From Rheinheimera sp. D18 (GTDB lineage: Bacteria > Pseudomonadota > Gammaproteobacteria > Enterobacterales > Alteromonadaceae): a DNA stretch of 64,000 nt. Where the stretch lies: positions 558,001-622,000 of the forward strand of contig NZ_CP037745.1 of assembly GCF_004345025.1 (NCBI RefSeq). Reading direction: 5' to 3'. Numbering within the stretch: the first letter of the stretch is position 1; each line of letters begins with the position of its first letter. The notes below the pieces were generated by a model, which saw nothing but the letters and a program-made list of their open reading frames with translations, was not told the origin of the DNA and did no database searches. Below, piece after piece: positions 1 through 13,028 of this stretch. The translations under genes and the position numbers were made by a program.

Positions 1-473
1 TGATCCACAATATTAGCTTGCCGGCAGGGCAATTTGCCTCAGTGCCCGAGCAGAGCCATGTTGATGCATTATTTATGGGCACATTAGATACGAATGCTGA
101 TGCCAGCTTCGCCTGTTTGCAAGGTTTAAGGGTGTCGGCACATTGCGTAATTTGGCGTGATGGTCGCATTTTCAATTATGTGCCATTTTCGCATCGGGCT
201 TGGCATGCTGGCGTAAGCCAATTTGCTGGACGCGAGCGTTGCAACGATTTTTCTATTGGTATTGAATTAGAAGGCACCGACAATTTGCCGTATACTGAGC
301 AGCAATATCAAAGCTTGGTTGCGCTCACTTATTTTATTGTGCAGCAACATCCAGCGATTACGCCAGAACGTATAGTTGGGCACTGTGATATTGCGCCGGG
401 GCGGAAAACTGACCCTGGCATCGCGTTTGATTGGATGCGCTACCGAAGTGCGGTAAGGGAGTTTTTTCTATGA
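1..473 (+). CDS. ampD: 1,6-anhydro-N-acetylmuramyl-L-alanine amidase AmpD (5' end missing)
   Basis: Cytoplasmic zinc amidase that removes the peptide from anhydromuropeptides during cell-wall recycling. The reading frame is open from base 3 and already reads IHNISLP, the first zinc-histidine motif of AmpD, so the true start lies left of the window and about 30 residues are missing; the TTG at 18 is internal. RVSAHCVIWRDG, HAGVSQFAGRERCNDFSIG and GHCDIAPGRKTDPG (second zinc His and Asp) are all present and match E. coli AmpD closely by memory. The stop overlaps the ampE start by four bases (ATGA), so the two are translationally coupled. Confidence 0.95.
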   Translation, partial: IHNISLPAGQFASVPEQSHVDALFMGTLDTNADASFACLQGLRVSAHCVIWRDGRIFNYVPFSHRAWHAGVSQFAGRERCNDFSIGIELEGTDNLPYTEQQYQSLVALTYFIVQQHPAITPERIVGHCDIAPGRKTDPGIAFDWMRYRSAVREFFL

Positions 474-9670: not shown

Positions 9671-10375
9671 TTATGTTGTCATCGGTGGCGGGTTAATAAA
9701 GCGATCACCCATTAAACCAGCATCAAGATGGCCAACTTTAACGTAAATTAAAGCGCCCTCTGCTAGCGTAAACGGCGTGTGTTTACTGTATCTAGGGTTT
9801 CTTAACCAGCTACCGGCAGGGTATTGGCCGTACTCATCACAAAACAGCCCCTCTAACACCAGTATTTCTTCACCACCGGCATGAATATGCTGACTAAACT
9901 GCGTATTTGGCGCCCAGCGCACTAATGCCGTGCTTACAGCGTTGTGCTCATGCAGTGGTAACACAGATAAACCGGCAACTAAACCTTGTCGCCAGTTGGC
10001 TTGCTTTGTGTTGAGTACGAGCTGCGTCGTATCTTCAGCAGCAAATTGCCATAACTTAACTAAAAGTGTGCAGCCGTTAATTGAGAACGGTTGATGAGAA
10101 CTCCCCGGTGGGTTGCGTAAATAGCTGCCCGCAGGGTAGTCGCCATGCTCGTCAGAAAATATACCGTCGAGCACTAGGATTTCTTCGCCGCCATTATGAG
10201 TGTGCGCACTGTAGCCACTACCAGGTGCATAACGCACTATACTGGTGGCGCGAGCAACTTCAGCGCCGGCTCGGTCTAACATCATGCGGCTGACGCCAGC
10301 AAGCGGTGAATCAATAAACTGGTAGTGCTCAGGTTGTATCACCACACGCTGGCTAAAGTTGCTGTTAATCTGCAT
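9671..10375 (-). CDS. Double cupin protein, ChrR-like
   Basis: A 234-residue protein made of two repeated cupin domains: HTHNGGEEILVLDGIFSDEHGDYPAGSYLRNPP (about residues 58-92, quoted here by its first and last parts) and a near copy HIHAGGEEILVLEG...YPAGSWLRNPR at about 160-195. The H-x-H-x5-E metal ligands are kept in both. The repeat resembles the C-terminal cupin of the anti-sigma factor ChrR, but the zinc-binding anti-sigma N-terminal domain is absent, so this is a free-standing cupin. It lies between the VOC and DUF2805 genes on one strand. Confidence 0.8.
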   Translation of the reverse strand: MQINSNFSQRVVIQPEHYQFIDSPLAGVSRMMLDRAGAEVARATSIVRYAPGSGYSAHTHNGGEEILVLDGIFSDEHGDYPAGSYLRNPPGSSHQPFSINGCTLLVKLWQFAAEDTTQLVLNTKQANWRQGLVAGLSVLPLHEHNAVSTALVRWAPNTQFSQHIHAGGEEILVLEGLFCDEYGQYPAGSWLRNPRYSKHTPFTLAEGALIYVKVGHLDAGLMGDRFINPPPMTT

Positions 10376-10873: not shown

Positions 10874-11389
10874 CTAGCTTAGCGAGTAACTTAATCCACC
10901 TTTGCAGGTAAAGCGCTTATCGCCTTTATGTATGCTATTAACTTGGCGCCCGGTAACCATGCTGAACCAAATGTTATCCGGTGCTGCAGTTTGTAATTGA
11001 ATATCATCAATGCAGGCTTGGTCTTGGCAACCGGTTGTACCACTGCGATTTAAAACTAGCTCGATATGGCGGCCGTTGTTTTTTAACACTATGGAGCTGG
11101 GCGCTTCGCGGTGGCCGCTTAAGGCAACAAACTGGGCTGGGTTTTCTAAGCCGCTGGTGCTGCCATCAGCAAAAAACGCAAGTAACTGCTGATAGTACAC
11201 TACGTAACTGCATACCTCTTTATGCGAACCTTGTTGCAGTGGAAAGGTTTTATCTAAAAAACCTTTTGAATAATCCATGACTTGTCGGACATGGCGTTGA
11301 TTAAGCTCGTTAATTACGCTTAGCTCAGTCGCCATCCAAGCGGTCTGGTTTGGCGTGGTCGTGCTGTAATGTTGGGCCAGTGTTGTCAT
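10874..11389 (-). CDS. Stand-alone malate synthase G-like fragment, hypothetical
   Basis: A 171-residue protein whose residues about 44-135 align by eye with the non-catalytic region of malate synthase G (E. coli GlcB about 150-260): FLDKTFPL, GS, DGSTSGL, PAQFVAL, LKNNGRHIEL and D-A-I-D-D/L correspond in order. The catalytic barrel, including the DCEDS stretch and the active-site Arg and Asp, is missing, so malate synthase activity is not expected. The C-terminal 35 residues are unlike GlcB apart from a possible GDKRFT. GAGG before the ATG suggests it is translated. Divergent from the ScfR-type regulator, whose family controls acetate/propionate metabolism. It could be a decayed gene or a repurposed domain. 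Confidence 0.65.
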   Translation of the reverse strand: MTTLAQHYSTTTPNQTAWMATELSVINELNQRHVRQVMDYSKGFLDKTFPLQQGSHKEVCSYVVYYQQLLAFFADGSTSGLENPAQFVALSGHREAPSSIVLKNNGRHIELVLNRSGTTGCQDQACIDDIQLQTAAPDNIWFSMVTGRQVNSIHKGDKRFTCKGGLSYSLS

Positions 11390-11503
11390 GATGAAGTCCT
11401 CGTTATTTTTGCTGTTGTTAACATGTTTAACAAAAGGTACTGCTGTTGCTATCGGTTAAAAACTAGTCTAGTCTAAAATATTGAGTAATTTCACAATAGA
11501 AAT

Positions 11504-11516
11504 TTTACAGTGTAAA
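11504..11516. promoter_or_regulatory. Palindrome in the leader of the ScfR-type regulator
   Basis: TTTACAGTGTAAA is a near-perfect palindrome (TTTACA-N-TGTAAA) ending ten bases before the regulator's ATG and inside the divergent spacer. A plausible autoregulatory operator; no reference motif was available to test it. Confidence 0.4.
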
Positions 11517-11525
11517 TTTTACAAA

Positions 11526-13028
11526 ATGAAAACGAATAAAAGCCTAATTAGAAAGTCGCATTTTCTTGGTACTAAAATCCGCAACTTGAGAAAGCGCAAC
11601 AACTTAACGATGGAAGATTTATCGACGCGCTGTATTCGGATTAACCCGGAACAGGCACCGTCGGTATCTTATCTGTCGATGATTGAGCGCGGTAAGCGCA
11701 CGCCTAGTGTTGGCATGCTGGAAGTCATAGCTACTGTTTTTCAAAAAGACTTGGACTGGTTTTTAGATGGTGACGATGCTGTGCCAGATTTAAGGCCGGA
11801 AAAGGGCAATAAAGGTGGTATTAGCGGTATTGCCTTAGAGCCAGGTTTTTTATTTTCGAACGATATTTTACAAATTGCTATACCAGAAATGCTGTCACAA
11901 ACTGGCACCAGCGGTAAGCAGTTTGCGCAGTTACTGATCCGTGCTCATCAAGAACACAACCAAAACCACTTTCCTGAGTTAGAGCGTGCCGCGGAAGATG
12001 TCGGCCAAAAACGTATGCCATTGAGTGTTGATGATCTAATGCGCATTACTAAACAACTTGGCTTAACCGTGCGTTGGTTTAACGAGGCACCAAAAGAGTT
12101 ATTAGACGAGTTGGGCGTATTATCAAAAAATGTGTCAACTTCTTATTTTACGCCACCTGGTACACTGTATTTAAACAGCTTACTTAAAGCTGTACCAACA
12201 AGGCTTAAATATGAATTGGCGGTACACATTGGCCATGCGGTGCTGCATAACAAGGATGGCGTTAAAAGCAGTATGTCGATAGGTGGCGCGCACGACAACG
12301 AGCCATCACAATCGAGTAGTGTGCAACCACAAGATATTTTGCATGCCTGGCGCGATTTTGAGTCGAGTTTTTTTGCTGGCGCGTTACTTTGCCCTAAACT
12401 ACCGTTTCGCCAATTGCTTGACCGGCAGGGTTATGAAATAAGCTCGCACTTACAAGCTGGCGTGTCAGCTTCTGTCGCCATGCGTCGTATGACAGCCGTA
12501 TCGCCTTATACACATTGGCATTATTTTGATGCCTATACCCCTGGAAAATTAAAAGCAGTATACCGTGGTAATGGTATACCCCTGCCGTGGGGCAATATGC
12601 GCCAAGTGCAAGATCCTTGTCAGCACTGGGCGGTGTTTCGTATGTTTGATGTTGACGATGTAGCCAGCTCGGCGCAATTGTCACTGCTTGACGTTAATGG
12701 TATGCCACGAATTTATTGTTGTGAATCAACTAAGGTAAAAGATCTAGCGGGTAATACGCATGTGCTTTGTGCCGGTATAGATTTAAATCCAGCTTTGTTA
12801 GCGCAAGGTGTAGACGCCGATAGCATGGCCGGTGAGTTAAAACAGTTATGTGTGAGCAGTGCCGGTGGTGCAAAAATTCCAGCAACAATTAAAGCGGCAT
12901 TAAGTAGTGTCGCAAATATTTTAAATATTAATTGGGTAGCGCGCAGTGTACAAAAGCCGGCGCAGCTAATTTGCGCGCGGGGCAATAGTTGCCCACGTAG
13001 CCCAGAGTGTTACCGATGTGCTGGCTAG
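11526..13028 (+). CDS. ScfR/RamB-like short-chain fatty acyl transcriptional regulator
   Basis: A 500-residue XRE-type regulator: helix-turn-helix at about residues 10-70 (LGTKIRNLRKRNNLTMEDLS...YLSMIERGKRTPS), then a long ligand-sensing region typical of the ScfR (DUF2083) family, ending in a cysteine-rich tail ARGNSCPRSPECYRCAG. In Corynebacterium and mycobacteria RamB controls glyoxylate-shunt and acetate genes. The ATG at 11526 is chosen over an earlier frame start at 11481 because the helix-turn-helix begins soon after it and the upstream part is AT-rich leader. Divergent from a malate synthase G-like fragment. Confidence 0.88.
   Translation: MKTNKSLIRKSHFLGTKIRNLRKRNNLTMEDLSTRCIRINPEQAPSVSYLSMIERGKRTPSVGMLEVIATVFQKDLDWFLDGDDAVPDLRPEKGNKGGISGIALEPGFLFSNDILQIAIPEMLSQTGTSGKQFAQLLIRAHQEHNQNHFPELERAAEDVGQKRMPLSVDDLMRITKQLGLTVRWFNEAPKELLDELGVLSKNVSTSYFTPPGTLYLNSLLKAVPTRLKYELAVHIGHAVLHNKDGVKSSMSIGGAHDNEPSQSSSVQPQDILHAWRDFESSFFAGALLCPKLPFRQLLDRQGYEISSHLQAGVSASVAMRRMTAVSPYTHWHYFDAYTPGKLKAVYRGNGIPLPWGNMRQVQDPCQHWAVFRMFDVDDVASSAQLSLLDVNGMPRIYCCESTKVKDLAGNTHVLCAGIDLNPALLAQGVDADSMAGELKQLCVSSAGGAKIPATIKAALSSVANILNINWVARSVQKPAQLICARGNSCPRSPECYRCAG

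Follow-up and report, generated by a model that had tools for sequence, protein, structure and literature searches.

Why would a bacterium keep a piece of malate synthase G (MSG, GlcB) too short to hold the catalytic barrel, and keep it divergent from a regulator gene? The question is raised by a 64,000-nucleotide stretch of Rheinheimera sp. D18 DNA (the window), in which an open reading frame at 10874..11389 on the minus strand encodes a protein of 171 aa. The first-pass annotation had reported an intact frame with a ribosome-binding site, which we confirmed (ATG start; GAGGA 7 nt upstream, at 11397..11401 on the minus strand), and had offered two alternatives: a glyoxylate-shunt gene decayed beside its regulator, or a domain kept as a separate binding or regulatory protein. 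MSG contains a sizeable inserted domain that has had no assigned function since the first structure, and we know of no account of its role in the enzyme.

The sole Pfam domain in the short protein is MSG_insertion (PF20658; residues 30-104, E 2e-22), which scores 79.6 bits against a curated cut-off of 24.8 and so places the protein in that family. NCBIfam malate synthase G models cover residues 27-135 only (E 1e-22 to 1e-23), and the E value against PDB MSG chains is 3e-17. The 190-position model NF006511/PRK08951, named 'malate synthase', spans residues 7-170 (E 5e-52) with 176.5 bits, above its subfamily cut-off of 173, making the protein a member of this subfamily. An AF2 model of the short protein (pLDDT 80) superposed on MSG crystal structures over 128-133 residues (Z about 17-18.6), with its residues 23..171 lying on E. 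coli MSG about 152..330 in both segments of the insertion domain. Together, the Pfam, NCBIfam and PDB matches and the superposition rule out chance similarity to MSG.

The first segment of the domain (residues 23-135, E. coli GlcB about 152-262; 10985..11323, minus strand) was delimited by PF20658, superposition and alignment with full-length proteins, and the second (residues 136-171, GlcB about 296-330; 10877..10984, minus strand) by alignment and superposition. Alignment with full-length relatives showed that the two segments are fused directly, the intervening barrel segment (GlcB about 263-295), with the strand ...TTIxDFEDSVxxVDxEDK..., having been excised, and that the C-terminus falls just before GRSLxxVRNVGHLM, where the GlcB barrel resumes. 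Judged by the model, the short protein is cut at the structural borders of the insertion domain. The earlier view that an MSG domain without the catalytic barrel is encoded here was thus borne out, with a better domain match than had been stated. The protein does follow the non-catalytic region of GlcB but does not, as had been thought, leave the family at residue 135; and its predicted structure does superpose on GlcB, but on the insertion domain instead of the clasp, an identity that superposition and alignment both reject.

As to structural and evolutionary identity, the short protein is therefore almost certainly the complete MSG alpha/beta insertion domain, freed as a stand-alone protein. 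It shares with GlcB (PF20658; PDB 1D8C, 5C9W) the sequence and fold of the whole domain, both segments included, but has no clasp, barrel, C-terminal domain or catalytic residues, and is encoded by a 171-aa gene of its own. The attributes of the enzyme, a TIM barrel with catalytic Arg/Glu/Asp and a C-terminal catalytic base, were absent from the short protein, PF20658 being all that was found. The family itself is already known, being present in databases under an enzyme name (PRK08951). That name implies an activity that the protein cannot have, and because the genes so labelled do not encode enzymes, metabolic models are misled; the NF006511/PRK08951 entry is silent on the regulator, operator and displaced operon described below.

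If the gene were simply what is left of a glcB decaying next to the regulator it once had, the deletion of the catalytic parts would fit, and one genus does have intermediates of 334-403 aa whose barrel has decayed. The selection data refute this reading and leave it practically no probability. Median dN/dS of the short gene in five clades was 0.046, 0.084, 0.064, 0.121 and 0.040; at 0.04-0.12, the gene is no pseudogene. The range for the regulator was 0.01-0.04, and within the short gene the first segment was the most constrained (pN/pS 0.14 vs 0.30 for the second). The gene is intact at 42 named loci in Rheinheimera, Arsukibacterium, Alishewanella, Shewanella and other gammaproteobacterial assemblies, and the regulator, always divergent, lies in the stretch read at 41 of these, the remaining neighbours varying. 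The short form, with exact domain boundaries, stands beside the regulator in 66 of 95 regulator-bearing genomes, and there are 18 extra copies. A full-length glcB does occupy the exact place in 25 of the 95, as expected of a pseudogene's relatives, but the short forms are conserved rather than frameshifted. The 'decayed gene' alternative was accordingly rejected; selection and conservation support instead a domain kept as a separate protein, for which a binding or regulatory role would be an inference.

The divergent gene (11526..13028, plus strand) encodes a 500-aa protein with HTH_3 and DUF3612 domains by Pfam and, in an AF2 model (mean pLDDT 70), a PrpR/RamB (ScfR/IsaR)-like fold. Z scores of the model were 19.4-19.6 against M. 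tuberculosis PrpR, covering 245-268 residues (about 132-498), and 11-12 against IrrE/CapP. Searched by sequence against solved structures, the regulator matched in the HTH alone, with no link to ScfR structures, so that its ScfR/PrpR connection rests on the AF2 model. The RamB-type HTH match was weak (E 0.0014), and the NCBIfam RamB equivalog NF038139 gave 17.4 bits, in the HTH only, against a cut-off of 700. The combination of an HTH with a PrpR-like CoA-binding fold, which characterizes ScfR/IsaR proteins, was nevertheless found (HTH_3 and the AF2 fold, respectively).

PrpR binds CoA or short acyl-CoA together with a [4Fe-4S] cluster, and proteins of its group carry a C-terminal C-X2-C-X4-C motif (PMC6765138). 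The DUF3612 regulator does not have this motif. Its invariant cysteines are C365, C483, C489 and C495, the last three forming C-X5-C-X5-C; like PrpR, it thus combines a GAF-region cysteine with a C-terminal cysteine trio, and the four residues are possibly a variant [4Fe-4S] site, with a spacing that differs from the published one. The proteins share a fold over regulator residues 132-498 (PDB 6CZ6, 6CYJ, 6CYY, 6D2S; Z 19.6) but differ in domain (DUF3612, not DUF2083) and are only about 15% identical.

A similar arrangement is found in Paracoccus denitrificans, whose RamB/ScfR gene is likewise divergent from malate synthase-isocitrate lyase genes and whose product binds the shared ramB-ms intergenic region, from which it controls glyoxylate-cycle genes (PMC10370305). 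The RamB/ScfR family senses CoA thioesters (PMC10370305), and the DUF3612 regulator is predicted to do the same. There are differences: RamB boxes number two with an 18-bp spacer, whereas here there are three 9-bp boxes at a 14-bp period, and RamB targets enzymes, whereas the regulator's target in the window is a non-enzymatic domain. The original description of a divergent ScfR/RamB-type regulator holds, by fold and by context, since glcB-aceA or aceB-aceA lies beside the regulator in other genomes; on the strength of the model, the neighbour is probably an acyl-CoA-sensing regulator.

Cross-family conservation revealed a putative operator at 11487..11523 (plus strand) that consists of three direct repeats of AATTTYACA with 5-bp spacers and a 14-bp period; in the window it reads AATTTCACA-N5-AATTTTACA-N5-AATTTTACA and ends 2 bp from the regulator ATG. 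No such triple repeat is expected by chance in the window. It was present, with 0-2 mismatches, at all regulator loci read in the order, whether the MSG gene was short, intermediate or full-length, and 26 columns were invariant in 43 operators from many families. A scan for a perfect even-length palindrome showed nothing shared, and a promoter scan of the locus gave scores at shuffle level.

A profile of the operator, run over 16 genomes, found 1-3 strong sites in each (E at most 1e-8), matching in number the MSG-domain genes of the subfamily, dispersed and tandem copies included; the next-best site had E 0.0175. The scores of sites that went into building the model are not independent of it, but the absence of further sites is, as are the dispersed sites G744:C78 and G464:C1, neither of which went into the model. 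It is very likely that the short gene is regulated by the neighbouring DUF3612 protein.

Conservation of the operator exceeds that of the DNA on either side, as it would if the open reading frame were kept only for the regulator's intergenic region or promoter and the protein did nothing. This is very improbable, because selection acts on the amino acids: synonymous divergence is high while the protein stays conserved. Moreover, dispersed copies keep both protein and operator at sites that have no regulator gene in need of protection.

The history of the locus can be read from a survey of 394 genomes of the order, 95 of which have a DUF3612 protein above cut-off. In all 95, an MSG-domain gene is adjacent to and divergent from the regulator; it is short in 66, intermediate in 4 and full-length in 25, one of the intermediates (G602) probably being a full-length gene broken in its assembly. 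Conversely, none of the 394 genomes has a high-scoring gene of the short-MSG subfamily without the regulator. The full-length genes keep the catalytic residues: 14 of 15 examined match all four catalytic-motif patterns, and aceA lies 3' in 13 of 15 loci. Sequence comparisons thus support an ancestral locus in which a PrpR/RamB-like regulator was divergent from a glcB-aceA glyoxylate-shunt operon.

A separate malate synthase barrel is encoded in each of the 66 genomes with a short form, whereas the regulator-linked enzyme is the sole malate synthase in 19 of the 25 full-length carriers (Fisher test on 69/0 vs 6/19, p 5e-15, shared descent ignored). This contrast points to displacement of the glcB-aceA operon with the domain kept, and the comparison supports a non-orthologous displacement in which catalysis passed to a different malate synthase and the original glcB was trimmed to one domain. 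The first-pass annotation had suggested looking for a full-length malate synthase elsewhere in the window's genome; there is a malate synthase A (534 aa) near isocitrate lyase (558 aa), both far from the window, but no full-length GlcB, the genome's single MS_TIM-barrel (PF01274) match, at C1:736524, being that of malate synthase A. The aceB and aceA genes there (G000:C1:736-741 kb; L002, L003) are separated by an opposite-strand LysR-type gene. No operator was found 5' of either gene within 4 mismatches, nor was there a second strong site in this genome; with the local operator as the only one, there is no visible link from the circuit to aceB or aceA.

The insertion domain appears to have become specialized before the truncation, because it is the part of the regulator-linked full-length proteins that departs most from ordinary GlcB. 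Within-group minus between-group identity was 0.180 (0.147-0.216) for the insertion domain, compared with 0.129 (0.108-0.152) for the barrel and 0.112 (0.094-0.133) for the C-terminal domain, the intervals coming from a column bootstrap and ordinary GlcB serving as the comparison group. Residues such as F49, Y65, F73, Q86, A89 and Y168 are common to the short and regulator-linked full-length proteins and mostly absent from ordinary GlcB. Such specialization while the domain was still part of an enzyme favors a signalling role.

Judging from sequence, the domain is kept alone in at least two independent cases. In a rooted tree of the regulator, full-length forms are basal and at least two changes are forced, so a single origin of the truncation is unsupported across orders. 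In another order (G258, L213), a 137-aa version whose chain stops once the first segment is complete is divergent from the regulator and stands 26 bp before aceA, occupying the place of glcB. A third lineage (G167) has an aceA-like gene and a full-length glcB together in an operon opposite the regulator, and a dispersed 188-aa domain protein with a perfect operator adjoins an acyl-CoA synthetase gene. The pairing has an exception in G017 (L225), where aceB and an aceA-like gene are divergent from a distant DUF3612 regulator (46% identical) and the 11-kb stretch read contains no MSG-domain gene. The MSG domain is therefore not obligatory for a DUF3612 regulator. A degenerate triple-repeat operator with 5 mismatches is present at this locus.

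Two kinds of variant loci were also seen. The regulator-adjacent intermediates of L174, L175 and L177, all from one genus (g275), have a shortened clasp and a decayed barrel stretch that has lost acidic residues; in two of these three genomes a short copy is present as well. Extra short copies, dispersed or in tandem, occur in other genomes (L153, L157, L158, L176, L178, L215-L218), each with its own operator; their neighbors include a 2-oxoacid dehydrogenase E1/E2 operon and genes for acyl-CoA synthetase, betaine (BCCT) and TRAP transporters, and an amidohydrolase.

The best explanation of the locus as a whole, to which we give somewhat less than an even chance, is a freed insertion domain that is regulated by its neighbor and serves as a non-enzymatic regulatory partner. 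The comparisons support a history in which catalysis was taken over by AceB or by an ordinary GlcB and the regulator-linked glcB was cut to its insertion domain. Purifying selection has held the domain since then, and relocated or duplicated copies, too, have stayed behind this operator. The regulator, sensing acyl-CoA as the PrpR fold suggests, would bind the triple AATTTYACA operator, turn on the short gene and, because the operator sits just upstream of its own start codon, presumably repress itself. In the least certain step, the domain would act without catalysis to adjust the glyoxylate-shunt or acyl-CoA response, its target being either the regulator itself or an enzyme that the regulator serves. 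We propose the partner mechanism tentatively, since the G017 exception and the lack of a visible circuit link to aceB/aceA in the window's genome count against it; action on the regulator itself seems unlikely. A broader and speculative version, which we doubt, would make the insertion domain a signalling module throughout: the regulator-linked GlcB would be a trigger enzyme talking to its own PrpR-like regulator, and the domain would have been freed repeatedly as a dedicated non-enzymatic co-regulator and carried along with its operator, as a cassette, to further acyl-CoA genes.

The free domain could instead be an enzyme-modulating subunit that leaves the regulator untouched and tunes the activity or assembly of the enzyme it binds, be it isocitrate lyase, the malate synthase that took over or an acyl-CoA enzyme. 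The position of the short gene directly 5' of aceA in L213, of a dispersed copy just 3' of an ordinary full-length glcB in L218, and of further copies beside acyl-CoA synthetase or 2-oxoacid dehydrogenase genes would all suit such a subunit, but some of the dispersed copies have unrelated neighbors (BCCT/TRAP transporter, amidohydrolase), and we consider this role a minority possibility. Less probable still is a small-molecule binder that buffers or reports a pathway metabolite, e.g., glyoxylate, acyl-CoA or a related acid. The domain is compact and conserved (25 sequences share 38 invariant positions) and its regulator has an acyl-CoA-sensor fold, which would suit such a binder; on the other hand, we know of no ligand for the insertion domain of classical GlcB in MSG structures.

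What the regulatory-partner reading shares with these two is a domain with work to do outside catalysis. More than once the enzyme has been removed and the domain alone kept, as it is in many marine bacteria, under a regulator of its own and with an operator confined to these genes, which is strong evidence for a job other than catalysis and suggests that the insertion domain has a regulatory job of its own. What appears to be new is that exactly the insertion domain survived, on more than one occasion, when the enzyme was displaced, and that it is paired one-to-one with an operator and a PrpR-like regulator; no papers on DUF3612, PRK08951 or the gene pair were found in a literature search that had most subscription journals outside its scope, and PrpQ yielded nothing pertinent there. 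The small stand-alone protein offers a handle for testing the function of the insertion domain, and the analysis names a likely glyoxylate-shunt regulator and its operator for several gammaproteobacterial families. Elsewhere in the window, a double cupin with two ChrR-type Cupin_7 repeats (9671-10375) adjoins VOC-fold and TIGR03643 proteins, and parts of this block recur close to the short gene in related genomes, in positions that vary.
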